Positions 498 to 16,600 of a stretch of DNA of 37,131 nt are shown piece after piece. Position 1 is the stretch's first letter, and the number at the start of each line of letters is the position of its first letter. The notes beneath the pieces are model-generated. The model was not told where the DNA came from. It did not search any database and saw only the letters and a list, made by a program, of their open reading frames with translations. Made by a program: the position numbers and the translations under genes. Source of the stretch: a virus; IMG/VR virus record IMGVR_UViG_3300031645_001454, positions 1-37,131 of that record. One strand, 5' to 3'.

Positions 498-543
498 TGA
501 AGCCGATGCGCAGACTCGAACTGCGGACCTACTGATTACGAAT
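498..543 (-). other. Prophage att site: 3' half of a tRNA-Thr(CGU) gene
   Basis: On the minus strand this reads as a tRNA from the anticodon loop (TTCGTAA with the first bases cut) through the variable loop, a perfect T-arm (CGCAG TTCGAGT CTGCG) and the acceptor 3' strand CATCGGC. It ends in TCA rather than CCA. No D-arm or 5' half is present; sequence 5' of the anticodon loop is the integrase gene, whose stop codon begins at the last base of the fragment. This is how a tyrosine recombinase crossing over in a tRNA anticodon loop leaves the displaced 3' end. Because phage DNA lies 5' of the fragment, bases left of about 498 should be host, and the intact tRNA-Thr should lie beyond the right edge of the window. 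The CGU identity rests on the loop sequence alone. Confidence 0.75.
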
Positions 544-1700: not shown

Positions 1701-1741
1701 CGATTTGCCTTTTTTATTTTTCGCTCAAACTTATCTATTGC

Positions 1742-2026
1742 TTAGTCTATTTTCCGTATATCATAAACTTTATCGCTAACTATTTTAAGGATGTATGTCT
1801 TGTTTTGGTATTTATAAACCCACTCCTCAGCCTTGAACCATCCGCTTCTGGTTCTGATCTCGCCGACTGTTTCCCGGCTTATCGGTTCGCCACAGTTATC
1901 CAGAACTTTATATTTACTATCTCCAGTACAGACTATGGCTCTCTTGTAATGCATACAGTTTGCAATGGCTAAGGCGTTGGTGGATATTAACAGAATTAGA
2001 ATGATGGAAAAGATTAGTTTTTTCAT
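1742..2026 (-). CDS. Small secreted DUF2845-like protein
   Basis: 94 residues with a clear signal peptide (MKK, then a hydrophobic run to about residue 21). The mature part has two Cys near the start (CMHYKRAIVCTGDS), then FGEP/CGEP-like and VGE-R motifs and an aromatic WVYKYQNKTY strand. This matches the DUF2845 pattern, whose function is unknown. A diverged paralogue is encoded at 15955-16263, sharing CM-Y-(R/A)-VC-GDS, GEP, VGE-R and E-W-Y. It lies between the membrane zinc-ribbon gene and the integrase in the lysogeny cluster, so it may be expressed from the prophage and act in the periplasm or on the envelope. Family call moderate; role unknown. Confidence 0.7.
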   Translation of the reverse strand: MKKLIFSIILILLISTNALAIANCMHYKRAIVCTGDSKYKVLDNCGEPISRETVGEIRTRSGWFKAEEWVYKYQNKTYILKIVSDKVYDIRKID

Positions 2027-2054
2027 GAATGCCGCTCCTGGTTTAATTTATGTG

Positions 2055-2843: not shown

Positions 2844-3002
2844 GCTCTTTCTCGCAAACTATTATTTTCTAAAGTAAAAATATTTTCTATTTAAATTACT
2901 ACCTGTTTATACCTTTGGTTAATATAGATAGATTATATTATCTACATGTCTATAGCTCCGAACTCGGCGCGGGGCGCTTTGCTGGTGGGCTGCGCCTGAG
3001 TA

Positions 3003-3572
3003 TCATTTCCCGTTGGCAGCCGGATCGAGGTTGTTCCCGTTGGTTCCTTTCTTTAGTAATTCAATTTGATTTTCAAGTGTTTTGATTTTAGCGAAAAAGC
3101 TTTGTTCCAACGCTGAAAACTTGGCGCTGAGGGTACGTTCACGGTCAACCGATTCGACGGCAGCATGGAAGGCATCAACGTTATAGGTCAGGGCGATGCT
3201 GTAGGGGGTGTTGGATTGTAAAACGCGGGCGGTTTTGCCTAAGAGTTCATCGAGCCGATCGGCGGGTGCTGCGGTTGGGGGTTCGGGTTGGGGTTCTTTG
3301 TCTTTGTTTTCCCAGGCAAGTCGCACCGATGTATGGACCGGCTTCGTGAACATATCCCCTTCACCGGTTTCGAGCCAACGTCTGGAGATTTTATGATTTA
3401 TTTGGATCAATTGCATTAATTGGTCTGAAGGTACTTTATTTTTTTTCTCTATGTCTGAAACGTAACCGCCCGTTATTCCAGTGGAATTTCCAAATTCCTT
3501 TTGGGTGAGATCAAGAGCTCTTCTGGCTTTTCTTAATCTTATTCCGAAAGTTGCAGTTTTTTCTGTTGACAT
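3003..3572 (-). CDS. CI-like phage repressor (XRE HTH plus coiled coil)
   Basis: 189 residues. Residues about 8-65 form an XRE/Cro-CI helix-turn-helix (LRKARRALDLTQKEFGNSTG, then GGYVSDIEKKNKVPS), followed by the RRWLETGEGDMF segment common after the HTH of phage CI-like repressors. A Pro/Glu-rich linker (about 90-105) leads to a C-terminal helical region with heptad-like spacing (LSAKFSALEQSFFAKIKTLENQIELL), a likely oligomerisation coiled coil. There is no S24/LexA-type peptidase domain, so RecA-stimulated self-cleavage is not expected. It is divergently transcribed from 3667 across a 94-base gap holding an inverted repeat. It probably maintains lysogeny and represses the early plus-strand operon. 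Confidence 0.85.
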   Translation of the reverse strand: MSTEKTATFGIRLRKARRALDLTQKEFGNSTGITGGYVSDIEKKNKVPSDQLMQLIQINHKISRRWLETGEGDMFTKPVHTSVRLAWENKDKEPQPEPPTAAPADRLDELLGKTARVLQSNTPYSIALTYNVDAFHAAVESVDRERTLSAKFSALEQSFFAKIKTLENQIELLKKGTNGNNLDPAANGK

Positions 3573-3599
3573 AATAAGTTCAAATGAGTTATTCAGATT

Positions 3600-3625
3600 G
3601 AAACTGACTTTTTCAGCTTAGTTTC
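3600..3625. promoter_or_regulatory. Candidate operator in the divergent early/repressor gap
   Basis: Between the repressor and the first rightward gene, GAAACT (3600-3605) is mirrored by AGTTTC (3620-3625), with inner CTGA/TCAG halves. A dyad of about 26 bases here is where a CI-like repressor would bind to control both directions. I could not place -35/-10 boxes confidently. Confidence 0.4.
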
Positions 3626-3666
3626 TCGGTTTGCAAATTTAACCGTTCGCTTTTGGAGGTCACACC

Positions 3667-3912
3667 ATGTCGAAAGTCATTCTAATAAATGGCTCAGGGT
3701 TGGGGATAACTCATCACGCCAAACTTCTGGAGGCAGAATATCGCCGCCAAGGAATAGCCTGCAGGCGCTGCCAAACAGGCAGGCGGCTTGATCCGGGAAC
3801 AATAAAGACAATCAACTCGTTCACTGGTTATGTAATTATTGAAACCAACCAAGCGACGATCGAAGGGATAACCCCCTGGCAAACAATAGAGGTCTCTGGT
3901 GGTCGTCAGTAA
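3667..3912 (+). CDS. Hypothetical early protein (possible Cro position)
   Basis: 81 residues starting MSKVILINGSGLG. It has a good ribosome site (TTGGAGG, 7 bases before the ATG). It is the first gene of the rightward operon, where Cro usually sits, but no clear helix-turn-helix is visible. The N-terminus (VILINGSGLGITHHAKLLEAEYRRQG) looks like a beta strand, glycine loop and helix, reminiscent of a small nucleotide-binding or flavodoxin-like fold, with a ...SFTGYVIIETNQATIEGI... strand later. I do not recognise the family. Its position suggests a role in early regulation or in switching on lytic growth. Confidence 0.6.
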   Translation: MSKVILINGSGLGITHHAKLLEAEYRRQGIACRRCQTGRRLDPGTIKTINSFTGYVIIETNQATIEGITPWQTIEVSGGRQ

Positions 3913-3963
3913 ACATTACAGAAACTTACTTTCAGTATTAACCATAAATTTGCAGGTTTTACA

Positions 3964-4440
3964 ATGACAAAATTTAAAGATGAAGTGAAGTTGCAGTCCT
4001 GGCAGATCTTTGCCGCCGCCCGGCGGCATCTGGGACCGAGCGTAGTTTCGGCTATTTTTGGCAAGCGCCGGGCGCGTATGGCCTATTTATGGGCCCAGGA
4101 TCCGGCGGTTACTGATTCTCATCATGGCCGGGATCCGCTGGAGTCGATCAAGATGATGTTTGAGCGCATGGCTGAGGTCGGTCGGGGTGATGTGGTGCGG
4201 TCGGCATTGGGTTATCTGGCTGGAGCTTTGGACGATAGCACCGAGATCGATCCGGTGGTGGATTGTTTACCGACTATGGATGCTGAGCTCTTGGCTGATT
4301 TCGGGGCTGTGGCTCTGTTGCGGGAAGGGATTGAGGAAGATTTCGAACCCGAAGAGGTCGAGAGGTTGGCGCAAGCCGCAATCGATGAAGTGGGCCGGTC
4401 GTTGGCAAAATATAAAGCCGAAATTAAAAAGCGGAGCTGA
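3964..4440 (+). CDS. Hypothetical phage early protein, possible CII-like regulator
   Basis: 158 residues, acidic in the C-terminal half (IEEDFEPEEVERLAQAA). The middle segment RRARMAYLWAQDPAVTDSHHGRDPLESIKMMFERM followed by GRGDVVRSALGYL resembles small proteins coded just after the repressor in other prophages, where they take the place of CII-type regulators. This is resemblance only; no canonical DNA-binding motif is clear. It has its own ATG 51 bases after the previous gene and is followed after 2 bases by the next gene, so the two are probably co-translated. Confidence 0.6.
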   Translation: MTKFKDEVKLQSWQIFAAARRHLGPSVVSAIFGKRRARMAYLWAQDPAVTDSHHGRDPLESIKMMFERMAEVGRGDVVRSALGYLAGALDDSTEIDPVVDCLPTMDAELLADFGAVALLREGIEEDFEPEEVERLAQAAIDEVGRSLAKYKAEIKKRS

Positions 4441-4442
4441 AC

Positions 4443-4706
4443 GTGACCGAGCTTGACCAGGTGAAATCAGAGCTAAAAGAGGTTCAGGGCTCACTAAATG
4501 CGGTTATGGGGTTGCTGGAATCAGTAGTGGGGCGACTCGACCGGTCCGATGTGGCCCAGGGTGAACCGACAATCTATGAAGTCGGTTGTGAGATGTCTCC
4601 GGAAACGATCAACCGCGAAATCTCCAGGGGCAATCGCCGCCCCCTGCACGAGCAGAATAAACGGCGGCTGCAAGCATTAAAAAAAATTACAATCAGGTCG
4701 TCGTAA
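4443..4706 (+). CDS. Hypothetical small helical protein
   Basis: 87 residues in the early operon, starting with GTG... context directly after the preceding stop (ATG two bases downstream at 4443 on the track of MTELDQVK). The N-terminal 35 residues form an amphipathic helix with heptad-like spacing (LDQVKSELKEVQGSLNAVMG), followed by a basic C-terminus (INREISRGNRRPLHEQNKRRLQALKK) that looks like a truncated helix-turn-helix or basic nucleic-acid-binding segment. No family recognised. Probably co-regulated with the neighbouring early genes. Confidence 0.5.
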   Translation: MTELDQVKSELKEVQGSLNAVMGLLESVVGRLDRSDVAQGEPTIYEVGCEMSPETINREISRGNRRPLHEQNKRRLQALKKITIRSS

Positions 4707-4735
4707 AAGGACTGATTATTCTCCAAGGAAATAAA

Positions 4736-5386
4736 ATGCCGGACCAAGCACTAGAAGAGAAAGAGCGAAACCCGATATTAACTGCGGCTGAGATCGCCGG
4801 TGATTTGCAGGCTGACGATCTTTCCGACAACGTCATTGAGAGGTTTGCCGAAAAGATCTACCCCGCCGGGATGCGATGCCCACGTTGTCAAAACATTTTA
4901 ACCGAAACCCAGAAGAAAGCCTTGCTGCGCGGCGGTCGGGTGGTTTGTAAGCATTGCCAGAAATGGTTCAGCTTTTTTTACGGGACTCGTTATCTTGGCA
5001 CCCATCTAACAATTAAACAGATCGCCTGGTTGGCACTGTTGCTTGATTGTGGTCTCAGTAATCGAGAAGCGGCAAAACGAATCGATCTTCACGTTGACAC
5101 GGTCAATAGTTGGCGTCATCGCTTTGCCGGTAGACCATCAAGCTATATGGCCCGCCGACGTAAATCTTTAAAGACTCCCTCCTCCCCCCGGCTGTCAAAG
5201 GTTGTATCGGGCTCGACCGGCAGCACTGCCCAAACCTCTCTGTCTGAGAATACCTCTCCTGGGTGGGCGACGGCCTCACCTGCAGAAAACCCGGAGCCGT
5301 TAAATGAAATTATTTGCGATATCTGCGGGGCTAAAAACCCGCGAAATAGTCGCTGTTGCGGGGGTTGTTATGCTCCGTTAGATTGA
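4736..5386 (+). CDS. Zinc-ribbon + HTH DNA-binding regulator (first of two paralogues)
   Basis: 216 residues; ribosome site AAGGAAA before the ATG. The segment YPAGMRCPRC...CKHC (about 43-75) is a zinc ribbon of the kind found at the N-terminus of IS1/IS1595-type transposases, followed by GTRYLGTHLTIKQIAWLALLL and a helix-turn-helix GLSNREAAKRIDLHVDTVNS (about 100-125). There is no DDE catalytic domain. A Ser/Thr/Pro-rich linker leads to a second zinc-ribbon-like end CDICGAKNPRNSRCCGGC (about 193-210). The product at 10585-11073 shares the ribbon-HTH core. The two flank the replication region, so I infer a domesticated transposase DNA-binding unit used as a transcription factor. Confidence 0.65.
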   Translation: MPDQALEEKERNPILTAAEIAGDLQADDLSDNVIERFAEKIYPAGMRCPRCQNILTETQKKALLRGGRVVCKHCQKWFSFFYGTRYLGTHLTIKQIAWLALLLDCGLSNREAAKRIDLHVDTVNSWRHRFAGRPSSYMARRRKSLKTPSSPRLSKVVSGSTGSTAQTSLSENTSPGWATASPAENPEPLNEIICDICGAKNPRNSRCCGGCYAPLD

Positions 5387-5433
5387 TGTTGAACCGCTGC
5401 CGGTGTGGCGGCCAGAAAAAAGGTATATCTCAA

Positions 5434-7032
5434 GTGCAACTCAATGAAATAATAATTGATAACTTCGCCGGTGGTGGCGGTGCCAGTACGGCGATTGAAT
5501 TGGCAGGCTTTAAAGTTGATATTGCAATCAACCACGATCCTGAAGCGATCTGTATGCATATGGCCAACCACCCGGACACTAAACATTATTGCGAAGATGT
5601 CTGGTCGGTAAATCCGCACGAAGCGGTTGCCGGGCGTCCGGTCGGGTTGGCGTGGTTTAGTCCGGATTGTAAACATTTTTCCAAAGCCAAAGGCGGCAAG
5701 CCGGTCGAAAAGAAGATCCGGGGCTTGGCTTGGGTAGTCGTGCGTTGGGCTGCAGCTGTGCGGCCACGAGTGATCATCCTTGAAAACGTAGAAGAGTTTC
5801 AGACTTGGGGGCCGTTAGGCCTGGATAATAAGCCAGATAAAGTCAGCAAGGGGTTGACGTTCCAGCGCTGGAAAAAACGCCTGCAGGATCTTGGTTATGT
5901 TGTTGATCACCGAGAGCTCAAAGCCTGCGATTATGGAGCTCCGACAATTCGTAAACGCCTCTTCTTGGTAGCCCGGTGTGACGGTCAACCTATCGTCTGG
6001 CCAGAACCAACCCATGGACCCGGATTAATCCCATATCGAACCGCAGCGGGATGTATCGACTGGTCGATTCCGGCACCGAGTATTTTTGAACGCAAAAGAC
6101 CGCTCGCTGAAAACACATTGAAACGTATTGCTAAAGGCATCAAAAAGTTTGTCATTGATGCGGCTGAACCTTTCTGCATCACCTATTATGGGCCAAAATC
6201 AGAAGATGAGTTTCGCGGCTTCGGTATGGGTGATCAGATCCCGACCCAGACCACAGAAAACCGGTTTGGTTTGGTGGTGCCGTTCATCACAGAACACGCC
6301 AACGCCAGTAGCCAACGCAATATGCCCGCTGACGAACCGCTGCGAACTCAGTGCGCTCAGGTTAAAGGCGGCCACTTTGCTTTGGTTGCCCCGATTATTG
6401 ACCGGCAATTTGGTCAAAGTAAAGGGAATAGCGTTGCTGACCCATTGGGCACTACTACCGCTGACGGTTTGGGTAAATCAGCTCTGGTCACGGCCTTTCT
6501 AGCCAAGCATTACACTGGCGTCGTTGGGCAGTCAGTAGAGCAGCCAACCGGCACAGTCACAACCAAAGATCATCATGCTTTAGTCACTAGCCACCTGATT
6601 AAGATGCGCGGCACCTGCCGTCCCGGTCAGGATGTGCGGAAACCCATGCCGACAATTACTGCCGGCGGATTGCATGTCGGTGAAGTCCGGGCTTTTTTGA
6701 TCAAATATTACGGCAATGAAAAAGACGGCTGCCAACTCCGTGATCCGCTGCACACGGTTACCACTAAGGATCGCCTGGGTTTGGTAACAGTCGCCGGACA
6801 AGATTATCAGATTACCGATATCGGCATGCGTATGCTGGCCCCGCGTGAACTCTTCAAAGCCCAGGGATTTCCGGAAAGTTATATCATCGATCCGCTTTAC
6901 AACGGCAAGCCCATGACTAAAACAGCTCAAGTACGGATGTGCGGTAACTCGGTGTCGCCCAACCCGGCGCAAGCGTTGGTTGAGGCTAACTATAAACAGA
7001 GCACAGCAACCAGCGCTGTTAATTGGCAATAA
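5434..7032 (+). CDS. DNA (cytosine-5) methyltransferase with six-fold repeated target domain
   Basis: 532 residues from a GTG start at 5434, chosen because AAAAAGG lies 9 bases upstream and motif I follows at once. Visible C5-methyltransferase motifs: I, NFAGGGGAS (10-18); IV, FSPDCKHFS (75-83) with the catalytic Cys79; VI, ENV (117-119); VIII, GAPTIRKRLF (168-177); X, CGNSVSPNPAQAL (503-515). Motif IV is SPDC rather than the usual PPCQ, a known phage-type variant. Between VIII and X, residues about 245-455 contain six units of about 30 residues ending in patterns such as PTGTVTTKDHHALVT. It probably methylates phage DNA against host restriction. It transfers methyl from S-adenosylmethionine to cytosine. 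Confidence 0.9.
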   Translation: MQLNEIIIDNFAGGGGASTAIELAGFKVDIAINHDPEAICMHMANHPDTKHYCEDVWSVNPHEAVAGRPVGLAWFSPDCKHFSKAKGGKPVEKKIRGLAWVVVRWAAAVRPRVIILENVEEFQTWGPLGLDNKPDKVSKGLTFQRWKKRLQDLGYVVDHRELKACDYGAPTIRKRLFLVARCDGQPIVWPEPTHGPGLIPYRTAAGCIDWSIPAPSIFERKRPLAENTLKRIAKGIKKFVIDAAEPFCITYYGPKSEDEFRGFGMGDQIPTQTTENRFGLVVPFITEHANASSQRNMPADEPLRTQCAQVKGGHFALVAPIIDRQFGQSKGNSVADPLGTTTADGLGKSALVTAFLAKHYTGVVGQSVEQPTGTVTTKDHHALVTSHLIKMRGTCRPGQDVRKPMPTITAGGLHVGEVRAFLIKYYGNEKDGCQLRDPLHTVTTKDRLGLVTVAGQDYQITDIGMRMLAPRELFKAQGFPESYIIDPLYNGKPMTKTAQVRMCGNSVSPNPAQALVEANYKQSTATSAVNWQ

Positions 7033-7064
7033 GATGCCGTCCTACAAAGAAAGAGGTTTTAATC

Positions 7065-7208
7065 ATGTCAGATACACAGATTGACCGGATTAACCAGATT
7101 ATCGACAAAGCCATTGACCGGGCCATCCCGGTGTTGCTGATCCTGGCCGCTATCTGCGCCGTTGAGTTGTTGGTTGTCAACCTTTGGCGCTGGGGGATGC
7201 AAGGATGA
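7065..7208 (+). CDS. Small single-span membrane protein
   Basis: 47 residues from the ATG at 7065, preceded by AAGAGG. An amphipathic N-terminus (MSDTQIDRINQIIDKAIDR) leads to one transmembrane helix (AIPVLLILAAICAVELLVVN) and a short WRWGMQG tail. The stop codon overlaps the start of the next gene (ATGA), indicating translational coupling. Function unknown; tiny membrane proteins in phage early operons often target host functions. Confidence 0.55.
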   Translation: MSDTQIDRINQIIDKAIDRAIPVLLILAAICAVELLVVNLWRWGMQG

Positions 7209-7615
7209 GCACTTTATTTGATAAATTTCCGGGCCTGGCCCGTTATGATCAGGACGCCGATCAGGGTGCGGTGGTGGCCAACATTCAGGAAGACCCTTTC
7301 ACTAAAATCTTTCTCGATGCTCTCAAGAAAACCGACGCGGCTGCCCGGCAGCGTTACTGCGGGGCTTTTTTTGCGGGGGTCAACTTCTTGGCCTGGGCTC
7401 GGGATAATGCCGGGGCCGATTTCGGCGATTATCTGGATACCGAGACCAAGATTGACGATCTTTGGTGCAAGAAGGCGCCGGAAGAGAGTTTTATTGCCGC
7501 CTTGCGGGTTTGGGCTGGAGCTTATCTCTATCTTGCCCGACGCTGTCACTGGGCTTTGATCGATGAAATTAACGCCCAGCTCAAGGGTGAGGAGCTGCAG
7601 CATGGGTTGGGCTAA
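7205..7615 (+). CDS. Hypothetical protein between methyltransferase and primase
   Basis: 136 residues from the ATG at 7205, which overlaps the stop of the preceding gene; its own 3' end overlaps the primase start by 14 bases. The protein is acidic at the N-terminus and rich in aromatic residues and Ala (FFAGVNFLAWARD, VWAGAYLYLARRCHWALI), probably a compact helical fold. No family recognised. Tight overlaps on both sides place it in the replication operon, so a role as a replication accessory is possible but unproven. Confidence 0.6.
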   Translation: MSTLFDKFPGLARYDQDADQGAVVANIQEDPFTKIFLDALKKTDAAARQRYCGAFFAGVNFLAWARDNAGADFGDYLDTETKIDDLWCKKAPEESFIAALRVWAGAYLYLARRCHWALIDEINAQLKGEELQHGLG

Positions 7616-9977
7616 GGAAAACCTCTCGGCCGGAGAGCGGGCCACCATCGCCCGAGGGCTTTTTGAGGTCGATGACAACCGTTCCAATGAAATCTGGATG
7701 CGGGGTTTGTGTCCGATCCATGGCGAGACTAATTCATCATTCGGCTATAATATCGTTGAGGACTATTTCAACTGCTTCACCTGCTCTGCAACCGGGGATC
7801 TGATCGATCTCTTCAGCCAAATCAATAGCCTGAACAAAGAGGATGGCTTTAAGCAGTTTCAGGCTCAATTTGGCCGGGGTGTGGCACCAGATAGAGCTGC
7901 AGGAACCAAGGGCGCGAAAAAGCCGCCAAAACTCACCCCCAAGCCCCCCAAAGAGAGCCCGATCATTGCTGAAGAGATCTGGGCCCGGATGCAGTCATTG
8001 CCGGAAGAGCGGTTGCAACGGTTGCAGGATGTGCGCGGCTGGACACCGAAGACTATCAAGGATCTGGATCTGCGCTTCCAGACCCTCTATCGCGCGAAAA
8101 AAAACGGTAAGATCATCGAGATCAAAAAGCCGGAACGGGTGGCGATCCCGATCCGTGACAAAGAGGGCAAACTCCGCAATATCCGCCTCTATAAACCGGG
8201 CGCCAAAGATTACAAGATCATCTCTTGGGGGCAGGATTACGGCAACGCCCGCCTCTTCCCCGCCCTGCCTATCGACAATAGCACTATCCTGCTCTGTGAA
8301 GGCGAACCCGACACCATCTGCGCGATTGCGCACGGTTTCAACGCTATCACCCAAACCAGCAAAACCCGCAACTGGGATGCCGAACACCTAGCCCCGTTTG
8401 TTGATCGTGATGTCGTGGTTGCCTACGATGCCGACCAGGCGGGGCAAACCCACGCCGGACACGCCCTGAAGGCCCTGGCTAAAGTGGCGGCTTCGGTACG
8501 TCAGCTTGAATGGCCGCCGTTTATGGGCCGCACTCAAGAGGGTGATTGGCCCAAAGATCACGGTCAGGATCTGACCGACTATTTCGTTAAACACAAGAAG
8601 ACCGCCGAGGATCTGCGCGAACTGATCGCCCGGGCTCCGGTCTACGAAGCCGAAGACGAAAAAGAACCCGACAAAAAATCGAGTGAGCGCCAGTTCTTCA
8701 CCCAAGGCATTAATGGCCGGCTGTCGTTTAAATCGCCATTGCTGGTCGATCGCATAATGAAAGATGTCTCGCTGTTGTCTGATCCGGAAACCAGCGTGCT
8801 ATATCGCTGGAATATGGTTCATTGGGAAGAGTACAGCGTCGAAAATGTCAGCGCTACAGCGCTTCGCTACCTGGGCCAGGAGGCTTCGAAAGCGCGGGCC
8901 GAGGATGTTGTTTACCAGGTGCGCCGCCTTTCAACGATACCTCACGGCCGCAAAGTCAACGATCGCGTCGACTGGGCCTGCCTGCAGAATGGTATGCTCA
9001 ATCTCAAAACGCTGGACTTAAAATCTCACACCAAAGATTTCTATGCAACCAATGTCCTGGGCGTAAAATTTGACGGCAAAAGCACAAAAGCCTGCGAGCG
9101 CTGGCTCAAGTTTCTCGCTGAGACCATCCAGGATCCCGACTCAATTAAACAGTTTCAAGAGTTCGCCGGCTACTGTCTGACCCGCGATGTCAAGTATGGC
9201 AAGTGCCTGCTGCTGATAGGCGACGGGAGCGATGGCAAATCCACCGCCCTGAAGATCCTGCGCCAACTCGTTGGTAAGCAGAACTGTTCATCGGTCGGTT
9301 TCGAGGAGCTCGACGACCAGTTCCACCGCTCTGCCCTGAAAGACAAACTCTTAAACACCGCAACCGAGGTCGGCAGCAAAGCCCTGGAAAGTAATCTTCT
9401 GAAAGCCCTGGTCACCGGGGAGGAGGTGCGCGCCGCCTTTAAACACAAGGACGGCTTCGACCTTTCATCGTACTGCAAGTTCGCCTTCTCCGCCAACCGC
9501 CTGCCCCGTGTTCTCGACAACTCTGACGGTTTTTTCCGGAGACTCCTGATCATCCGTTTTAAGAAACAGTTCATGGGCGCCGCCGATGATACTAACCTGA
9601 TAGAGACACTGGAGACCGAACTCTCCGAGATCTTCTCCTGGGCCCTGGTCGGCCTGCACCGCCTCATGGAGCAGAGCCGCTTTTCCGACAGCGCAGAGTC
9701 ACAGGAGATCATGCAGGCATATCGCCGCCTCAACAATCCTATCCAGTGCTTTGTCGAAGACTGCTGCGCAATTGAAGAGGATAGCAACGCTGTTAAAGAC
9801 ACCCTTTACGGCAAATATCGTGAGTATTGCGGCAAGTATGGTTACATGCCCCAGAATTACGAAAACTTCCTGCGAGAGCTGCGCTCGGCTGTCAAGAACC
9901 TGAGGGACTTTCGTCCGCGCGTTTCGGGTGGTGCCCGACCCCGTAGCCTGAAAGGCATCAGGTTGGTGGAGGGATGA
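7602..9977 (+). CDS. Primase-helicase, P4-alpha / D5-like
   Basis: 791 residues from the ATG at 7602 (GGAG 8 bases upstream). Domains in order: a CHC2-type zinc finger CPIH...CFTC (about 37-61); a TOPRIM-type primase core with LLCEGEPDTICAIAHG (about 230) and VVVAYDADQAG (about 268); a charged linker near 350-370; then a D5_N and superfamily 3 helicase region with Walker A GDGSDGKST (about 540) and downstream FAFSANRLPR (about 627) resembling the SF3 motif C. The combined primase and helicase in one chain, as in satellite P4 alpha, starts and drives DNA replication. The iteron cluster directly downstream is its likely binding site. Confidence 0.92.
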   Translation: MGWAKENLSAGERATIARGLFEVDDNRSNEIWMRGLCPIHGETNSSFGYNIVEDYFNCFTCSATGDLIDLFSQINSLNKEDGFKQFQAQFGRGVAPDRAAGTKGAKKPPKLTPKPPKESPIIAEEIWARMQSLPEERLQRLQDVRGWTPKTIKDLDLRFQTLYRAKKNGKIIEIKKPERVAIPIRDKEGKLRNIRLYKPGAKDYKIISWGQDYGNARLFPALPIDNSTILLCEGEPDTICAIAHGFNAITQTSKTRNWDAEHLAPFVDRDVVVAYDADQAGQTHAGHALKALAKVAASVRQLEWPPFMGRTQEGDWPKDHGQDLTDYFVKHKKTAEDLRELIARAPVYEAEDEKEPDKKSSERQFFTQGINGRLSFKSPLLVDRIMKDVSLLSDPETSVLYRWNMVHWEEYSVENVSATALRYLGQEASKARAEDVVYQVRRLSTIPHGRKVNDRVDWACLQNGMLNLKTLDLKSHTKDFYATNVLGVKFDGKSTKACERWLKFLAETIQDPDSIKQFQEFAGYCLTRDVKYGKCLLLIGDGSDGKSTALKILRQLVGKQNCSSVGFEELDDQFHRSALKDKLLNTATEVGSKALESNLLKALVTGEEVRAAFKHKDGFDLSSYCKFAFSANRLPRVLDNSDGFFRRLLIIRFKKQFMGAADDTNLIETLETELSEIFSWALVGLHRLMEQSRFSDSAESQEIMQAYRRLNNPIQCFVEDCCAIEEDSNAVKDTLYGKYREYCGKYGYMPQNYENFLRELRSAVKNLRDFRPRVSGGARPRSLKGIRLVEG

Positions 9978-10097
9978 TGATTATAAGATTAAGCCACCGA
10001 TCCCCCGTACCCCCAGCAGATCCCGTTCGCGGTGCTCACAGCTCCGAGGCAACCATAAGGCGCTCCTGCACCCTGAAAACACCTGAAACCCCGCTCA

Positions 10098-10364
10098 TGG
10101 TACCAACCCGGTCCACCCTGGTCCAGGGGGGGTGGTACCAGCAAACCGAGCAACCAAGCGGGTTAGAGCGTGGTGGTCCAGGTGGTCCACCCATATCAAA
10201 CATAATGCACATGTGCGCCCGCGCATATTATTATATTCTTTACAAATCTTTCTTTTATTTAAAAAATAGTTGGACCACCTGGACCACCCCAAAAAATCCC
10301 AACGTTCATGCGGTCTCGCTGGTACCACCCCACCCGGACCACCCCGGTACCAACTCGGACCACC
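10098..10364. other. Iteron cluster with AT-rich core: candidate replication origin
   Basis: This gap of over 500 bases after the primase holds about ten short related units. TGGTACCA-type units lie at 98-105, 131-140, 320-329 and 345-353 (each plus 10000). GGTCCA / TGGACC units lie at 10110-10117, 10119-10127, 10172-10189 (two in a row), 10271-10288 (two in a row), 10336-10343 and 10356-10364. The paired units at 10172-10189 are the exact reverse complement of TGGACCACCTGGACCACC at 10271-10288. Between them is an 80-base AT-rich tract with TTTATTTAAAAAATAG, suited to strand opening. Satellite P4 has iterons and an origin-associated element by its alpha gene. No convincing gene is seen from 9978 to 10540. 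Confidence 0.6.
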
Positions 10365-10584
10365 AAATAATCAACGGGTCCTTCTGGCGAAATCACAGCT
10401 AGCGGGCAGCAAAGCACCCGAAAAACGCGCACGGTTGAAATTTTTTCAGCCCTTGAATTATTGAATGGTCGTAATGTTTTGCAATTGATCGGGCTCACGG
10501 TGATCCTGATTGTGGGGATCCGGTAGTCGGAGAGTGGGGTAGATGATGCAACAGGAAACGGTAAGTAAAATGGGAGGGCTGAAA

Positions 10585-11073
10585 ATGACGGCTGGCGGGG
10601 ATACAATGATTGATCCGAGGGGGGTAGGCGAAAAAGGGCGCGGGGGGGCGCGGGTGGTGGCCTTTTCTATAGCCGCTGTTGGCGTGGCCGCCGATTGGCG
10701 TTGGCTGGATGAAGAGGTATGTCGGTTGTGGCTCCTGAAGCAATTTTATCCGGCCGGGCCGAGTTGTCCTGTCTGTGGGGTTGAGGTTCGTAATGGTAAA
10801 GCAACAGATAGCTGGTGGCATTTGCGCCGGGTCCACTGCCATAACTGCGGTAGCTTCTATCGGGCGACCAGAAATACCATTCTACATCGTTGCAATTTAA
10901 AGTTTCGGCAGGTTGTAATGCTGGCCTGGGCGTTCGTTTTAGGTTTGGATAACTCTCGCGCTGCCAAGCTGTCCGGAATCAATCCAAAAACCGCCCGATT
11001 GTGGCGGCTTCGCTTGGAGGTAGTGGTGACGAACACAAGAAGTGAAAAGGAGTTAATCAATGAAAAGCTTTAA
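10585..11073 (+). CDS. Zinc-ribbon + HTH DNA-binding regulator (second paralogue)
   Basis: 162 residues from the ATG at 10585, chosen for GGGAGGG 6 bases upstream; an in-frame ATG at 10543 would add 14 residues. After a Gly-rich N-terminus, FYPAGPSCPVC...CHNC (about 57-90) is a zinc ribbon and LGLDNSRAAKLSGINPKTAR a helix-turn-helix. Aligned by eye with the 4736-5386 product it shares YPAG--CP-C, RRV-C--C, a GT/NT step, Q--xLA, GL-N--AAK and T--WR-R. It lacks the second ribbon and any transposase catalytic domain. It is just upstream of the SLOG protein and terminase genes, so a late-gene activator role is plausible. Confidence 0.65.
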   Translation: MTAGGDTMIDPRGVGEKGRGGARVVAFSIAAVGVAADWRWLDEEVCRLWLLKQFYPAGPSCPVCGVEVRNGKATDSWWHLRRVHCHNCGSFYRATRNTILHRCNLKFRQVVMLAWAFVLGLDNSRAAKLSGINPKTARLWRLRLEVVVTNTRSEKELINEKL

Positions 11074-11530
11074 ACTCTCGATCCATGGCAGCCGGTCTTT
11101 AACAGATGAACGGGTGAAAATCATTCTTTTAGAGAAGATCAGAAAATATTCTCCTACAACCTTGGTTACTTATGCCGAGCCAGGTGGGGTCTGTGAGATT
11201 GCCAGGGATCTCTGTAAAGAGATTGCTTTACCTCTGAAGTTACATTTTTTAAATTTTCGCTACTTGCGTGGGGCTTTCGAGCATCGCAGTAAAGATGCGA
11301 TCGCCGATTCTGACTACTGTATTTTTATTCACGACGGCAAAAGCAAGGGCACGCATAACGAAATGAAACTGGCCAAGAAGATGGGGATCCCTTTCGAGCA
11401 CCATGAACTGCCACCAGCCGAATTTGACAAGAGCGTCGGTTTCGATATCGAGGTCGACTGGGATCAGCTGATCATAGATGATAGTCAACTTGAAGAAAGT
11501 CTTAAAACCCTCAACAATCTGAACGTCTGA
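11060..11530 (+). CDS. SLOG-superfamily (DUF2493/YspA-like) protein
   Basis: 156 residues; the start overlaps the end of the regulator gene by 14 bases. The sequence begins with a strand and the loop IHGSRSLTDERV, typical of DUF2493/SLOG Rossmannoid proteins. It continues with TYAEPGGVCEIARDLC, where those proteins have a glycine-containing nucleotide-binding loop, then ADSDYCIFIHDGKSKGTHNEM, matching the second strand and THNE/TxNxI-like helix of the family. SLOG domains bind nucleotides or derivatives and often accompany phage or defence genes; the substrate here is unknown. Stop and next start overlap (ATGA-type) with terminase small subunit. Confidence 0.65.
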   Translation: MKSFKLSIHGSRSLTDERVKIILLEKIRKYSPTTLVTYAEPGGVCEIARDLCKEIALPLKLHFLNFRYLRGAFEHRSKDAIADSDYCIFIHDGKSKGTHNEMKLAKKMGIPFEHHELPPAEFDKSVGFDIEVDWDQLIIDDSQLEESLKTLNNLNV

Positions 11531-12276
11531 TGCCGAACCCGAATAAAACCACATCCGACAAGCTGAATGATGCTCTGGCTTATGAAGAGCAGATTTTAAA
11601 AGGTGCAGTGATCAAGACCCTGGCCAAAGTCCAAGGGAAGCCAACTGCCGAGAACACCCGTAACCATCAGGCCGCGAAGAAAGCTTTAGAAGGGTTTCAG
11701 CACAAACGTCAGATAACTGAAAATCCGGATGAGGTAGTTTTTAAGACGGTGGCCGAGGCTTATAGATATGCCGTGGATAACGACTATCGCCGGACGCGGC
11801 AGACGATGGATAATCATATTGAGTCGGGTTTTTTGGTGCGGCTTGCGGATGGCAGGATCTCTAAACCGGCGGTCGATGCTTATTTGGCGATGCAGGCCGG
11901 CATCGATACCGACAACCCAGTTGCGGTCCTCGAAATGCGGGACCAGGAGGCCAAGACCAAAAAAACCGAGGCTCAGGCTGAAGTTTGGGGTATTCGGGCG
12001 CGGCGAGAACGGGGCGAATTGATCTATCGTGATGAGGTGGAAGGGATGCTCGCGCAAAGGGCTCAGTTTCTACGACAGGATCTGGAGAGCTTTTTCCGGG
12101 TGTTGTCTCCGGATGTGATCGCCCTGGTCAATGGTAATGAGGACCGGGTTTTTGATCTGACGGAATTTGGCCTGGACCGTTTGGAAGAACATCTTGATCG
12201 CTACAGTCGGCCAATGCCGATGGGAGAGGTTTATAAAGACGCGGGGCCGGTAACTGTCCCTGTTAAGGAAACATAA
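11530..12276 (+). CDS. Terminase small subunit-like protein
   Basis: 248 residues, immediately coupled to the preceding gene. The middle part (VAEAYRYAVDNDYRRTRQTMDNHIESGFLV) looks like a helix-turn-helix of the Nu1 / terminase small subunit type. It is followed by a long helical segment (MRDQEAKTKKTEAQAEVWGIRARRERGEL) and a C-terminal region with RRGELIYRDEVEGMLAQRAQFLR, the arrangement of GpNu1-like small subunits where an HTH recognises the packaging site and a helix oligomerises. The large subunit follows, separated only by a cargo gene. The stop codon lies inside an attC-like repeat. Assignment rests on context plus this layout. Confidence 0.65.
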   Translation: MPNPNKTTSDKLNDALAYEEQILKGAVIKTLAKVQGKPTAENTRNHQAAKKALEGFQHKRQITENPDEVVFKTVAEAYRYAVDNDYRRTRQTMDNHIESGFLVRLADGRISKPAVDAYLAMQAGIDTDNPVAVLEMRDQEAKTKKTEAQAEVWGIRARRERGELIYRDEVEGMLAQRAQFLRQDLESFFRVLSPDVIALVNGNEDRVFDLTEFGLDRLEEHLDRYSRPMPMGEVYKDAGPVTVPVKET

Positions 12277-12355
12277 CGACCAGAATCAGGTGCGGGCCGA
12301 AAACTACCAGCAAACGCCCGCGCTTATTCCCGTCCCCTGAATTTGCTGGTTATGT
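12271..12355. repeat. attC-like imperfect inverted repeat A
   Basis: The left arm ACATAAC-GACCAG-AATCAGG (12271-12290) is mirrored by the right arm CCTGAATTTGCTG-GTTATGT (12336-12355), with one unpaired base in the right arm and a GCGGGC/GCCCGC stem inside. The terminase small subunit stop codon is the TAA inside the left box. The pattern core box, spacer, inner box, loop, inner box, core box GTTATG matches integron attC sites. Confidence 0.5.
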
Positions 12356-12373
12356 GAGTACCGGAGGTGTGAA

Positions 12374-12607
12374 ATGAACAAGGCAAGGCGTGAAAGAATA
12401 GAAGTAATAATTGACCAGTTGAACGCCATCTCAGAGGAGCTAGAAACCCTGTATGAAGAAGAAAGCGAAGTTTTAGAAAATATACCTGAAAATTTACAGG
12501 GGTCAGAGCGCTACGAAAAAATAGAGGACGCTGCCGGAACCATCGATAACACTGCAACTGAAATTAGTACGGCGGCATCTGAACTTCAAGAAGTTATAGA
12601 AGCATAA
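12374..12607 (+). CDS. Small acidic coiled-coil protein (cargo gene)
   Basis: 77 residues with GGAGG 7 bases before the ATG. The product is strongly acidic and all-helical, with heptad-like spacing (IEVIIDQLNAISEELETLYEEESEV). No family recognised. It interrupts the usual small-to-large terminase order, follows an attC-like repeat, and ends with a stop followed by a lone core-box-like GCATAAC. It is more AT-rich than the terminase genes. I infer a recently acquired insert with unknown role. Confidence 0.6.
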   Translation: MNKARRERIEVIIDQLNAISEELETLYEEESEVLENIPENLQGSERYEKIEDAAGTIDNTATEISTAASELQEVIEA

Positions 12608-12668
12608 CATTGTCAATAAATGGAAAAACCATAAGGAATAATGACAAAACTGGAGATTTTTACCGCTA

Positions 12669-14552
12669 ATGGCTGAGGCCCTGCAACAATTTTCTTTTTT
12701 CGAGCCGGTTCACTGGGTTCAGGCTGAACGGGATATCTGGCGGCGGCGGGAGCGCTTGACGGTTTCTGCTTTTGCGGAGAAGCATATCACCGTGGTGGGT
12801 GGGGCAATGGCGGGGCCGTGGCGAAATCAGTCGGTGCCTTACCTGGTTAAGCCGATGGATACTTACGGTTTGCCTTATGTCCGGGAGTTGGTGATCTGCG
12901 CGGTGGCGCAATCAGGTAAAACTCGGGCGGCTTATAATTGTTTGTTCTGGAGCCAGGATCGGGATCCGGGCCCGGCGATGACGATTATGTCGGGCCAGGC
13001 GGCGTTGAACAAGTTTTACGCTGATTTCCTGATTCCGACCATGCAGCAGTCGGAGCGGCTGGCGGCGCAACTCTCGACCAACCCTGACGATACGGCTAAA
13101 CGGCGGATCAGTTTAAAATCGGGCGTTACTTTTTATCCGGCCTGGGCGACTTCGGCGGCGGGTCTGGCGTCGTTCGGGATCCGCTATATGATTTTTGATG
13201 AGACCGACAAATATCCGTCAGTGGTTGGCGAAGAGACGGATCCAATCACCCTAGGCGAAAAGCGGACCCGGGTCTTTGAGCGTCGGGGCGGCTATAAGCG
13301 TATCTATATCTCGACGCCGACGCGCGAGTCTGGTTTTATCTGGAAGAAATTGCAAACCTGTCATCAGGTTTGGGTTTATGATGTGGTCTGTCCTGGATGC
13401 GGCAAAGCCCAGCAGATGCAGGTCGAACAACTTTGCTTTCCGGAAAAGCTTAGCATCGAAGAACTCGAAAACCAGCGCGCCGGGCGTTATCAATGTTTGC
13501 ACTGCGAAGATCTCTGGGATGAACGCCGCCGGGAAATGGCGATTCGCGCCGGGGGTTGGCGTTGTACGAAGGGGGCCGATCTTAGCCGTCCGGAAAAAGT
13601 TGGCTTTCATATCCCGGCCTGGATCGTCTTGGACATCAGTCTGACTGAGATCGTGGTTAAATGGAAAAAAGCCCAGACCGACCGGGCCGCACTCATCGAT
13701 TTTTACAACGATGTCCTGGCCGAACCCTTCGAAGATAGTTTTTCCGAGCGCAAAGAAGATCGAGTTTTAGCGTTAAAGGATGAGCGCCTGGCCGGGGCCC
13801 TGCCCGGGCTTGATGGTGAGGGTCGCGAACAGATTGCGGCTTTAATTCTAGAGGTCGATACCCAGGATAATGGCTTTTTTTATGAGGTCCGGGCCTACGG
13901 CTTTGATCGGGAGCAGGAGAGCTGGGGGGTGCGGGCCGGGTTTATCCAGACCTTTAACGGTTTGGATCAGATTATAAAGACTCTCTACAAAGATCCGCGC
14001 GGGGTTGAATACCGGATCTCGGGCGGGGCCATTGATACCGGCGGCCATCGCACCTCGGAGGTTTACGACTGGTGCCGGATGAACCCCGGCATGATGGCAA
14101 TCAAAGGGCAGCAGCGCCAGACGACACCTTACCGGGTGACCCTGCTCGACCGCTATCCGGGTACCGGCAAATTGATGCCGGGGTCGATCCGGCTTTGGAA
14201 TATCGACACCAATTTTTACAAAAATCAGCTCACGCAAAAGCTGGATATCGCGCCGGCCGATCTCGGCGCCTGGCATCTAAACAGCGAATACACCGAAGAC
14301 TATGCCCGGCAGATGTGTGCCGAGTACCGCGATGAACGCGATCTTTGGCAGTGCCCTAAAAATAAGGCCAACCACTTCTGGGATGTGTCGGTCTACGGTA
14401 TCGCTTGTGCTGACATTATGGGGCTCAGGTTTATGGCGCGCCCGGAAATCCAACCGAAAAAAACGGCCCTTAAGCCGACCTCGAAAAGCACTACAGAACC
14501 TGCCACCCGCAACCGGCCCCGGAGCCGACCGGGCTGGTTTAACCGGAGATAA
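12669..14552 (+). CDS. Terminase large subunit, lambda GpA type
   Basis: 627 residues, typical of GpA. The packaging ATPase region has a Walker A-like AVAQSGKT (about 78-85) and a Walker B YMIFDETD (173-180) with the catalytic Glu. A zinc-ribbon insert CPGCGKAQQM...CLHCEDLW (about 240-280) is characteristic of GpA. The C-terminal nuclease half includes LILEVDTQDNGFFYEV (about 395) and AIDTGGHRTSEVYDW (about 457) with acidic residues of the RNase H-like fold. It pumps DNA into the prohead and cuts concatemers. A basic, Pro/Thr-rich tail follows. Membership of the GpA family suggests lambda-type genome packaging, possibly cos. Confidence 0.95.
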   Translation: MAEALQQFSFFEPVHWVQAERDIWRRRERLTVSAFAEKHITVVGGAMAGPWRNQSVPYLVKPMDTYGLPYVRELVICAVAQSGKTRAAYNCLFWSQDRDPGPAMTIMSGQAALNKFYADFLIPTMQQSERLAAQLSTNPDDTAKRRISLKSGVTFYPAWATSAAGLASFGIRYMIFDETDKYPSVVGEETDPITLGEKRTRVFERRGGYKRIYISTPTRESGFIWKKLQTCHQVWVYDVVCPGCGKAQQMQVEQLCFPEKLSIEELENQRAGRYQCLHCEDLWDERRREMAIRAGGWRCTKGADLSRPEKVGFHIPAWIVLDISLTEIVVKWKKAQTDRAALIDFYNDVLAEPFEDSFSERKEDRVLALKDERLAGALPGLDGEGREQIAALILEVDTQDNGFFYEVRAYGFDREQESWGVRAGFIQTFNGLDQIIKTLYKDPRGVEYRISGGAIDTGGHRTSEVYDWCRMNPGMMAIKGQQRQTTPYRVTLLDRYPGTGKLMPGSIRLWNIDTNFYKNQLTQKLDIAPADLGAWHLNSEYTEDYARQMCAEYRDERDLWQCPKNKANHFWDVSVYGIACADIMGLRFMARPEIQPKKTALKPTSKSTTEPATRNRPRSRPGWFNRR

Positions 14553-14566
14553 CAGGTGAAATTGAT

Positions 14567-14758
14567 ATGGAGCAGAAGAAATTGGCCCGTTTAAATATCG
14601 ATCAGGCCCGGAAAAGAATTGGTTGCAGCCGCCCGCACGTTTACCGATTACTGGCAGAGGGCAAAATTAAAGGCTATCGCTTCGGGGTGCGGCGCGGGAT
14701 CCGAATCTATGGTGACTCGATCGAGAAGTTTATGCAGGGTTTGGATGAAAATGAATAA
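14567..14758 (+). CDS. Small excisionase-type HTH protein
   Basis: 63 residues, almost all of it a winged helix-turn-helix of the excisionase/MerR-like (HTH_17) type: LNIDQARKRIGCSRPHVYRLLAEGKIKGYRFG followed by RRGIRIYGDSIEKFM. Such proteins bind DNA as excisionases or small regulators. It is far from the integrase gene and 14 bases after the terminase, so control of late genes is as likely as excision. It is preceded by AGGTGA. Confidence 0.75.
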   Translation: MEQKKLARLNIDQARKRIGCSRPHVYRLLAEGKIKGYRFGVRRGIRIYGDSIEKFMQGLDENE

Positions 14759-14770
14759 GGGGATAAGGCT

Positions 14771-15013
14771 ATGACTAAACCGGAACAAGAGAAACGTATG
14801 TGGTGTTATATCCAGCCTCCTCCTATGTTTGGCATTAAATGTGATAAGTGTGGAGGCGAAAATATAACATGGTCTGAGTGGCAAGGGCTGATTTGGTGTT
14901 TTGATTGCGAAATAGACACAGTCGGCACAAAGGGTATTTTTGATAGCCCAATACCAAAACAAATGGCTGAACTTTTAGGAATCAGTTTTGACCGAGTAAC
15001 TTTAACCATATAA
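14771..15013 (+). CDS. Small zinc-ribbon protein (cargo gene)
   Basis: 80 residues starting MTKPEQEKRMWCY, with GGGGATAAGG upstream. CDKCGGENITWSEWQGLIWCFDC (about residues 27-49) is a classic zinc ribbon with an aromatic core. The rest (FDSPIPKQMAELLGISFDRV) looks helical. No specific family recognised. From here to about 15850 base composition is markedly AT-rich compared with the packaging and head genes, indicating a separate origin. Its stop codon lies inside the left core box of a collapsed attC-like site. Confidence 0.6.
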   Translation: MTKPEQEKRMWCYIQPPPMFGIKCDKCGGENITWSEWQGLIWCFDCEIDTVGTKGIFDSPIPKQMAELLGISFDRVTLTI

Positions 15014-15036
15014 CGACCTTAATTTGCTGGTTATGA
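15008..15036. repeat. attC-like site B, collapsed
   Basis: ATATAACGACC is followed almost directly by AATTTGCTGGTTATGA. The outer boxes match sites A and C (the right arm shares AATTTGCTGGTTATG with site A), but the central loop region is missing. It looks like an internal deletion of a full-length element. The preceding gene stops within the first box. Confidence 0.4.
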
Positions 15037-15044
15037 GAGGGCTT

Positions 15045-15230
15045 ATGGGCATTAGAAGAATGGATATGTATATTATTGTCTGTGATATTTGCGGAGAAGA
15101 ATTAGAAAATGGGGATGGTGGAATTCTATGTTCTTTTTCAAAAAAAGAAGCTGACAAATATAGAGAAATGAGCGAATGGATAAAAAAGGATGGTAAAATT
15201 GCTTGTCCTAATTGTTATGAAGAAATTTAA
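15045..15230 (+). CDS. Small zinc-binding protein (cargo gene)
   Basis: 61 residues from the ATG at 15045 (GAGAGGG just upstream); ATG codons at 15024 and 15060 are alternatives. It has two CxxC knuckles, IIVCDICGEEL and IACPNCYEEI, about 35 residues apart and separated by a charged helix (KKEADKYREMSEWIKKDGK), so one zinc ribbon is expected. No family name recognised. It is AT-rich and flanked by attC-like sites on both sides, like a gene cassette. Confidence 0.6.
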   Translation: MGIRRMDMYIIVCDICGEELENGDGGILCSFSKKEADKYREMSEWIKKDGKIACPNCYEEI

Positions 15231-15232
15231 CC

Positions 15233-15321
15233 GCATAACGACCGCAAATCACCCAGCCGCGCCGTGGGGTTGATAGAGTTTTGGTGCTTATTCGCGGTCG
15301 GGTGAATTTGCTTGGTTATGG
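15233..15321. repeat. attC-like imperfect inverted repeat C
   Basis: The left arm GCATAAC-GACC-GCAAATCACCC (15233-15254) pairs with the right arm GGGTGAATTTGC-TT-GGTTATG (15299-15320). The pairing has one extra A in the right arm and CCGCG/CGCGG pairing inside. It is the best-formed member of the set, 89 bases long. The extra base on the right arm means the canonical extrahelical-base rule would orient the site on the minus strand. Confidence 0.5.
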
Positions 15322-15337
15322 GAACATGGAGATGATA

Positions 15338-15550
15338 ATGTATGATGGGACAAAAGAAGAAAACAAAGAATTTGCACTTGAAAACATAGCTTTACAAGTT
15401 GATCGGATTGACAATCTTTTAGCAGCTATGTCTATACCGGTTGATAACTCGATACATGTTAACGCGCTAAAAGAATCTTTACCAGAAATGAAAAGTAAAT
15501 TGAAACAAGCTTACTTTGAACTTGGTGGCAAAGATGCATGGACCACATAA
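15338..15550 (+). CDS. Hypothetical small protein (cargo gene)
   Basis: 70 residues from the ATG at 15338, chosen because GGAG lies 6 bases upstream; ATG at 15326 or 15332 is possible. The product is all-helical and charged (FALENIALQVDRIDNLLAAM, LPEMKSKLKQAYFEL). No family recognised. The stop codon is the TAA inside the left core box of attC-like site D, as in the genes before sites A and B. AT-rich like its neighbours. Confidence 0.55.
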   Translation: MYDGTKEENKEFALENIALQVDRIDNLLAAMSIPVDNSIHVNALKESLPEMKSKLKQAYFELGGKDAWTT

Positions 15551-15634
15551 CGCTAAAGGGTGAGCTGCTGCCCGAGAGATTAACAAAGAATACGGGAAGC
15601 CTGTTGCGGTCGGGGCTCTACCCGCTGGTTATAT
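15545..15634. repeat. attC-like imperfect inverted repeat D
   Basis: The left arm ACATAAC-GCTAAA-GGGTGAGC (15545-15565) pairs with the right arm GCTCTACCCGCTG-GTTATAT (15615-15634), again with one extra base on the right arm. The arms differ in sequence from A and C but keep the same geometry, as attC sites do. Length is 90 bases. Confidence 0.45.
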
Positions 15635-15649: not shown

Positions 15650-15847
15650 ATGGAAAGTTTAGCTGAAGCATTACCAAAAGAGCAACAAAGAGTCCGTGAA
15701 ATTTTAAGTTATTACAAAGAAATTCCTGCCGGGCAATTTGGCGCGATTATGATCGAATCAGCTTTGCGCTTTGCAGATAAAGCTGCGGCAAACGGAGACG
15801 TTATACAAATGACAAGGGCTTATAAAGCCCTCTGCGAGATAAAGTAA
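15650..15847 (+). CDS. Hypothetical small conserved protein (cargo gene)
   Basis: 65 residues, starting MESLAEALPKEQQRVREIL, with GAGG upstream. Small all-helical proteins with this beginning, a central PAGQFGAIMIESALR segment and a closing MTRAYKAL segment are familiar as hypothetical proteins of phages and plasmids; I know no function. It follows attC-like site D, but no convincing fifth site follows it. Confidence 0.6.
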   Translation: MESLAEALPKEQQRVREILSYYKEIPAGQFGAIMIESALRFADKAAANGDVIQMTRAYKALCEIK

Positions 15848-15954
15848 GATAACAGATGGATAAGAGGAAAATATGTCCCAAGAAGATTTGGCCGGCTGGT
15901 CCAAATTGCATATTTGAGCTAAAGCGGTTAGATTAGCAAAAGGAGGGGTTTGCA

Positions 15955-16524: not shown

Positions 16525-16560
16525 TGTCTCTGTTGTCTCTGTTGTCTCTGTTGTCTCTGT
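16525..16560 (+). repeat. Four tandem copies of a 9-mer
   Basis: TGTCTCTGT is repeated four times without interruption, just upstream of the gpW-like gene. It lies in a pyrimidine-rich, AT-richer stretch where a late promoter or regulator site could be. An open frame through it encodes a Cys-Leu repeat and is not credible as a gene. Confidence 0.7.
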
Positions 16561-16600
16561 TGTATTAGACAAACCCCGCCTTATCCGCCATATTCTCTCT

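Follow-up and report, generated by a model that had tools for sequence, protein, structure and literature searches.

What are small genes bounded by integron-like inverted repeats doing around the terminase genes of a temperate phage? The question is raised by IMG/VR record IMGVR_UViG_3300031645_001454, a viral record of 37,131 bases, the whole of which is called the window here, and in which the temperate-phage genes for integrase, repressor, the terminase subunits TerS and TerL, portal, protease, major head protein and tape measure are present. Integrons are gene-capture platforms of bacteria, with cassettes read from a promoter at the integrase; in an ordinary integron, the attC sites lie upstream of the gene of the integron integrase, IntI, on the opposite strand, and the cassette genes follow the direction of attC. 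An earlier, sequence-only reading of the window had noticed four attC-like elements around such genes. Here I show that three of the four are integron attC sites in minus orientation, and that phage arrays keep the normal polarity between IntI and attC, with cassette genes that are mostly reversed. The best explanation as a whole, which I consider very probable, is that the window is a temperate phage with integron gene cassettes and no integron integrase, and represents a terminase-linked, phage-borne integron from which IntI has been lost, its attC sites being on the minus strand and its genes antisense to them. The features on which this turns are the following, in window coordinates.

11530 to 12276, plus strand: TerS, terminase small subunit (phrog_57, expectation value E 4e-6); its stop codon TAA lies inside the outer box of site 1
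12271 to 12355, minus strand: attC site 1, with R'' at the high coordinates and R' (GTTATG) at the low
12374 to 12607, plus strand: cassette gene 1, 77 amino acids, coiled-coil-like (phrog_4068, E 5.7e-17), antisense to site 1
12603 to 12608, minus strand: single core CATAAC (GTTATG on the minus strand), which contains the stop codon of gene 1 and, as read from the sequence, would close the site-1 cassette
12669 to 14552, plus strand: TerL, terminase large subunit of the GpA type (PF05876, E 1e-46; PF20454, E 2e-51)
14771 to 15013, plus strand: small gene with weak zinc-ribbon similarity, 40% G+C, its stop codon inside site 2
15008 to 15036, minus strand: site 2, a shortened attC remnant of 29 nucleotides, with arms common to sites 1 and 3
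15045 to 15230, plus strand: cassette gene, 61 amino acids, zinc-finger-like (phrog_17873, E 2.3e-7)
15233 to 15321, minus strand: attC site 3
15332 to 15550, plus strand: cassette gene, 72 amino acids, no family matched, its stop codon inside site 4
15545 to 15634, minus strand: attC site 4
15650 to 15847, plus strand: cassette gene, 65 amino acids, no family matched (open reading frame list and profile scans)
15848 to 15853, minus strand: single core GATAAC, the putative right end of the three-cassette array

By a motif descriptor, sites 1, 3 and 4 have full outer boxes (R'' and R', with the GTT core), an inner helix (L'' and L') and a variable loop, and the single extra base of the inner helix lies in the right arm, as seen on the plus strand, in all three. 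The sequence-only reading had placed such a base in one arm; its coordinates were right for all four elements, and the full geometry that it gave them holds for these three, site 2 retaining both outer boxes but no loop and little of the inner stem. It was also correct that in three cases (sites 1, 2 and 4) the upstream stop codon lies inside the first box; at site 3 the stop codon comes just before it. The pattern ATAAC-N(70-95)-GTTAT occurs four times in the window against 0.52 expected, a number that none of 100 shuffles reached; three of these occurrences are sites 1, 3 and 4, and the remaining one (at 36217) is without support from the attC models described below. Folding of the single strands is weak (best z scores -2.1 and -2.4), with site 4 not significant against shuffles, and no Rfam family was matched to the repeats. 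Candidates for the same repeats elsewhere were rejected: the 15-base motif AATTTGCTGGTTATG was found in 119 stretches of viral contigs, with attC geometry in the window's own only, and the pattern ATAACGACC-N-TTGCTGGTTAT had one viral match, in coding sequence without inner boxes. A stricter form of the latter pattern gave none in genome contigs.

In order to score the repeats, two covariance models were used. The first (R1) was built from 14 attC-like sites of other viral loci and has 16 covarying base pairs; in its alignment 85% of the cells are paired, and double changes are seen in 39 cells versus 16 in shuffles. The second (R2) was built from the 103 sites found by R1. The window was held out from the training of both models and was scanned on both strands with the filters off. 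Across its whole length, sites 1, 3 and 4 take ranks 1 to 3 with either model, all on the minus strand, with 28.1 bits (E 1.2e-4) for site 1, 18.7 bits (E 0.026) for site 4 and 13.2 bits (E 0.63) for site 3 under R1, and 27.5 bits (E 2.2e-4), 14.0 bits (E 0.29) and 18.2 bits (E 0.031), respectively, under R2. In the control, 869,634 bases from 95 unrelated viral loci, there was one weak match per model (E 0.57 for R1, 8.4 for R2). Bacterial integrons of Desulfobacterota that R2 had not seen yielded 47 matches at E <= 0.1, plus 19 in a further set. In published phages, R2 found three sites in TJE1 (30 to 33 bits) and four in PH101 (26 to 29 bits, with 100 of 132 kilobases scanned), the score level of site 1, and no attC at E <= 1 in P12002L and Rctr41k. 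Because the held-out models match the repeats, published phage arrays score alike and the control is quiet, sites 1, 3 and 4 are integron attC sites; they have the boxes, the inner helix with its extrahelical base and the loop of such sites, of which site 2 retains the outer boxes only. A scan of both strands with an attC model was the check that the sequence-only reading had proposed for its integron-cassette architecture, and that architecture stands, at the score level of published phage arrays.

With sites 3 and 4 about 220 bases apart, site 1 2.9 kilobases away and no IntI over the cut-off in the record, the window is an integrase-less array, also called a cluster of attC sites lacking integron integrases (CALIN), and not a complete integron with IntI and attI, as no IntI was found. 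The absence of an integron integrase, noted before, extends over the whole window, where TIGR02249 gives only weak, partial matches, all to the phage's own integrase; the latter was rejected as a candidate IntI, its match being below the cut-off. Six attC sites taken from TJE1, P12002L and PH101 were assayed with IntI1 by Qi et al. 2023 (PMC9892861), and five of them recombined. Phage sites of like model scores thus did recombine, and the window sites are candidate substrates of IntI.

Where, then, could an integrase have been? Relatives of the window TerL occur in Desulfobacterota genomes and in viral contigs, and the sister set consists of 91 terminase loci, 11 from genomes and 80 viral. An IntI gene or a remnant of one lies near TerL, on the TerL strand, in 12 of the 91 (L142 and L128 look like the same region); IntI is present in sisters such as L204, L187 and L163. 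The IntI profile used to search the loci was built from roughly chosen open reading frames (ORFs); the identity of the proteins rests on NCBIfam, with eight of the ten sister proteins scanned exceeding the TIGR02249 cut-off of 265 bits and the remaining two being partial. In their alignment the catalytic positions of tyrosine recombinases are visible, together with an extra segment that I take to be the IntI-specific one. The stop codon of IntI and the start codon of TerL share four bases (ATGA) in all seven sister loci checked that have IntI directly before TerL, and this overlap persists where just a stub of IntI remains (L128, L143); in L127, L181, L182 and L137, IntI is located upstream of TerS.

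Arrays between TerS and TerL are found by R2 in L128, L143, L204, L187, L141 and L199. In L163, where TerS was not found, two sites lie upstream of IntI, and L179 has three sites in the other orientation. Window site 1 occupies the same gap without IntI, its cassette gene being indeed, as read earlier, between the terminase subunits. In L003, the best match of the first TerL search, TerS and TerL are adjacent with nothing between them. The terminase loci of the sisters thus contain cassettes or attC sites different from those of the window, an IntI gene, or nothing, and the window cassette proteins had no match at E 0.01 among 31,439 ORFs of the fetched loci. From the sister arrays, the IntI genes near TerL and empty gaps such as that of L003 it follows that this phage family has a standing integron site in the gap between TerS and TerL, which is occupied in some members but in most of them empty. 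The sequence-only reading had offered captured cassettes or a phage-borne array, and the relatives argue for the latter, at a standing site.

The terminase is not the only setting of phage IntI. A search of viral contigs with the sister IntI alignment gave at least 565 relatives, 80 of which were kept, and the downstream neighbours include 12 TerL of the GpA type and 21 phage integrases among 102 proteins scanned (of 117 listed), a mix that indicates more than one setting, though host flank may form part of some of these contigs. Among IMG/VR contigs, IntI-like genes are frequent (L275 to L354), many beside phage integrases and some beside primase, Mor or GemA genes. In quick trees, phage and bacterial IntI each cluster yet interleave, which fits several exchanges; these trees carry SH-aLRT (approximate likelihood-ratio) support only, the first dropped several bacterial rows for stops, and two of the bacterial rows, L250 and L366, seem to have been read on the wrong strand or in the wrong frame.

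With respect to polarity, attC lies upstream of and opposite to IntI at 60 of 60 bacterial sites and at 84 of 87 viral sites. The cassette genes show a different pattern. Counting only gaps of 90-1600 bases as intervals, the longer ORF between two neighbouring attC runs against them in 20 of 24 terminase-linked intervals (13 loci, including the window, and also L193, L131 and L129, whose attC sit upstream of TerS) and in 35 of 45 other viral intervals (22 loci). All 29 bacterial intervals comprise 19 in the usual direction, nine reversed and one tie; without L366, whose four intervals are all reversed, 19 of 25 are usual, five reversed and one tied. Against the latter set, Fisher tests give p = 3e-5 for the terminase-linked and p = 7e-6 for the other viral intervals. 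L366 was removed after the result was seen, because of the phage primase, tail and restriction-alleviation genes there, and with L366 kept as bacterial the values become 2.7e-4 and 1.8e-4. As viral intervals within one locus are not independent, the majority per locus is given as well (reversed, usual, even): 11, 1 and 1 in the terminase set, 17, 2 and 3 in the other viral set, and 3, 10 and 0 in bacteria, L366 being among the three. The sites behind these interval counts were transcribed by hand from four scans. Of R1's 103, L296 and L185 were left out (two plus-strand matches), and the L143 site near 7626 was taken from the R2 scan of the terminase loci; of the latter scan, L142 (the same region as L128), L170, L175, L177, L139, L185 and positions 8699-8901 of L143 were left out. 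Of the two bacterial scans, the first was used without L228 (a copy of L272), L249, L252, L258 and L244, and the second without L372.

A stricter count, of ORFs that follow just after one attC and stop in the next core in one direction only, gives the reversed direction in 14 of 14 and 17 of 17 cases in the two phage sets; of the 15 bacterial cases, 13 run the usual way and the two exceptions are from L366. This locus (positions 1-13001 of G139:C45) is a prophage in a Desulfobacterota genome, with IntI, a reversed attC array, a Lar-like restriction-alleviation cassette and a methyltransferase, outside the terminase setting. Each of the four cassette genes of the window is antisense to its own attC, so that the usual common direction of gene and site is found at none of them, and the polarity in PH101 looks reversed too. 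The minus-strand orientation, which had seemed odd beside plus-strand genes, is real and common to most of the phage arrays examined.

The cargo lends independent support to the reversed direction. Pfam recognises 11 families, of one to three members each, among 64 antisense ORFs of the phage arrays, and none among the 52 sense ORFs. The antisense families include N6_N4_Mtase, Dam, Mom, C5 DNA methylase and PAPS reductase, and the recognisable phage cassette cargo is mostly DNA modification. Cassette ORFs in L143, L128 and other arrays have PAPS-reductase, DHH-family, Mom and Dam matches, hinting at DNA modification. In the window, two of the four cassette genes fall in phage families (phrog_4068 and phrog_17873), and the first has tblastn relatives in seven phage records. 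The bounded genes were rightly called AT-rich, with 31-42% G+C against 51% in the window and 56% in TerL.

These observations could be accommodated as follows. The window contains four units of a gene and an attC, bounded by GTT cores: that of site 1 between TerS and TerL, and the three-cassette array downstream of TerL, in which one unit relies on the decayed site 2. The single cores at 12603 to 12608 and 15848 to 15853 are the probable recombination boundaries, and the gene at 14771 to 15013 is either a target gene or a former cassette. Each cassette would consist of a small gene with the attC on its left, the gene running with the phage operon. The strand of attC that IntI uses is the bottom one, in folded form, and since attC is on the minus strand, this substrate is the window plus strand. 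Crossover in the GTTA core would then read TAAC on the plus strand, a stop codon, so that insertion may leave the upstream phage gene intact, the next site providing its TAA within the TAAC core, and each inserted gene would in turn stop in or by the next core. Expression of the cassettes would come from read-through of the packaging operon and not from a promoter at IntI. The loss of IntI is suggested by analogy with the sisters, which carry IntI or its remnant next to TerL with the array upstream in normal polarity, and the cassettes would move only if the host or a co-infecting phage supplied IntI.

Several observations speak against this account. Taken singly, sites 3 and 4 are marginal (E 0.03 to 0.6), although rank, strand and position taken together give them added weight; site 2 is not significant (8.5 bits, E 9.5 under R1) and is not in the R2 list; and exact DNA-pattern relatives of the window sites were found neither in the viral nor in the genome collections. 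No IntI remnant is recognisable in the window at 12608-12669. The relatives by which the loss of IntI is argued have TerL about 35-47% identical to that of the window, and among eight further viral junctions of IntI and TerL, three copies of the same phages overlap and five are at -56, -1, 0, 0 and +2 nucleotides. The second array, downstream of TerL, lies away from the terminase gap, with no counterpart seen among the sisters. Furthermore, 14 of the 69 phage intervals have their longer ORF in the usual direction, which is also that of the cassette genes of TJE1.

Alternatively, the sites may be true attC that were captured by chance from a host chromosomal integron, through the action of a host IntI at secondary sites, in a lineage without an integron of its own. 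IntI occurs in 81 of 144 genomes of the host-type class and attC matches in 57 of 97, and the missing IntI and the array outside the terminase gap would both fit such captures. However, IntI or its remnant stands near TerL in the 12 sisters, often coupled to it, with arrays in the very gap of site 1, and the cassette genes are inverted with respect to attC, unlike those of bacterial arrays of the same class, so that I consider chance capture unlikely. That the repeats should be phage terminators or regulatory hairpins, with a chance resemblance to attC, is in my view extremely unlikely. Their intergenic position after stop codons and their modest folds would suit this, but they are not followed by a T run, they fit models trained on attC beside IntI in sequence and structure, including the extra base and the GTTA core, and the control loci are quiet. 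Comparison with sisters, also suggested by the sequence-only reading, shows that the same repeats and genes are not conserved in place, which does not support a terminator.

The reversed polarity might in turn be an artefact, either of calling the orientation of a nearly palindromic site or of a longest-ORF bias in GC-rich DNA. The attC arms are nearly symmetric, TAA is present in both boxes so that ORFs on either strand can stop there, and site 4 also passed a looser descriptor on the plus strand. Yet the same model yields the expected polarity towards IntI at all 60 bacterial sites and the usual gene direction there, Pfam domains are confined to the antisense ORFs of phage arrays, and two of the plus-strand genes in the window belong to known phage families; an artefact is therefore very unlikely.

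A terminase-linked integron that lost IntI thus remains the preferred explanation, and phage integrons as such are already known. Qi et al. found 17 CALINs and four integrase-bearing phages among 10,705 genomes, with methyltransferase cassettes in phages, and the main text of that paper names a terminase once, flanking a Shewanella CALIN. These CALINs resemble the window in combining attC and small cassettes without an integrase, and their methyltransferase cargo recurs in the phage arrays examined here. However, they come from unlike phages, with no terminase-locus integron described in the main text, whereas here one family has arrays and IntI beside TerL, with the genes reversed. The complete phage integrons treated there (Vibrio anguillarum prophages p16 and p42, Shewanella M16-3 and a P1 mosaic) have IntI and attC, as do the sisters; by the same text, those of Vibrio and P1 are fragments either of class 1 integrons or of integrons from the host chromosome, in contrast to the sister IntI, which is joined to the terminase, with cassettes that run with the phage operon. 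Chromosomal integrons of Desulfobacterota are alike in IntI family, attC fold and polarity of attC and IntI, but unlike the phages their cassette genes run along attC in 19 of 25 intervals. Virus Rctr41k (KX853513) has an IntI-like 'xerD', with 46% identity to the L163 IntI over 84%, amid plus-strand genes including methyltransferases, but this gene is not beside the terminase and R2 attC are lacking, as given above. Neither an IntI joined to a terminase nor reversed cassettes were found in the open full-text literature, outside of which lie most subscription papers and all preprints. The window appears to belong to such a terminase-linked phage integron of reversed polarity.

Other features of the window may be mentioned. 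At its positions 6-158, the very start of the contig and near the integrase end of the prophage, the RNA end of a group II intron is present (RF02005, E 1.5e-24), possibly as host flank; group IIC introns are described in PMC8876359 as targeting attC. At 499-582, overlapping the end of the phage integrase gene, ARAGORN predicts a tRNA-Ile whose anticodon, AAT, is unusual; it may belong to the attachment site or be spurious. The nine bases TGTCTCTGT are repeated in tandem at 16525-16569, after the small-gene region and before the head-tail adaptor gene. The window also has a diversity-generating retroelement, with parts at 33052-33172, 33592-33712, 33712-33852 and 33874-34884: the 121-nucleotide variable repeat at the end of the ORF at 32097-33179 is a 92% match to the template repeat, with eight of ten differences at a template A, the reverse transcriptase then follows, and the Rfam RT-14 RNA adjoins.

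A broader proposal, about as likely as not, is that many phages own a class of integron with flipped cassette genes, in which cargo and integrase are read with the phage operon and, in one family, are joined to the terminase gene. Recombination would then be linked to the late phase of lytic growth, with its abundance of replicating and single-stranded phage DNA, which would result in a phage-timed shuffling of anti-restriction genes, the window being a copy without the integrase. A phage integron set in the packaging operon, with its genes turned for phage transcription, would demonstrate that phages put integrons to uses of their own. It would also indicate a separate cassette pool in phages, whose recognisable members are mostly DNA-modification genes, and would explain how small AT-rich cargo can slot in at the stop codons of essential phage genes without breaking them.

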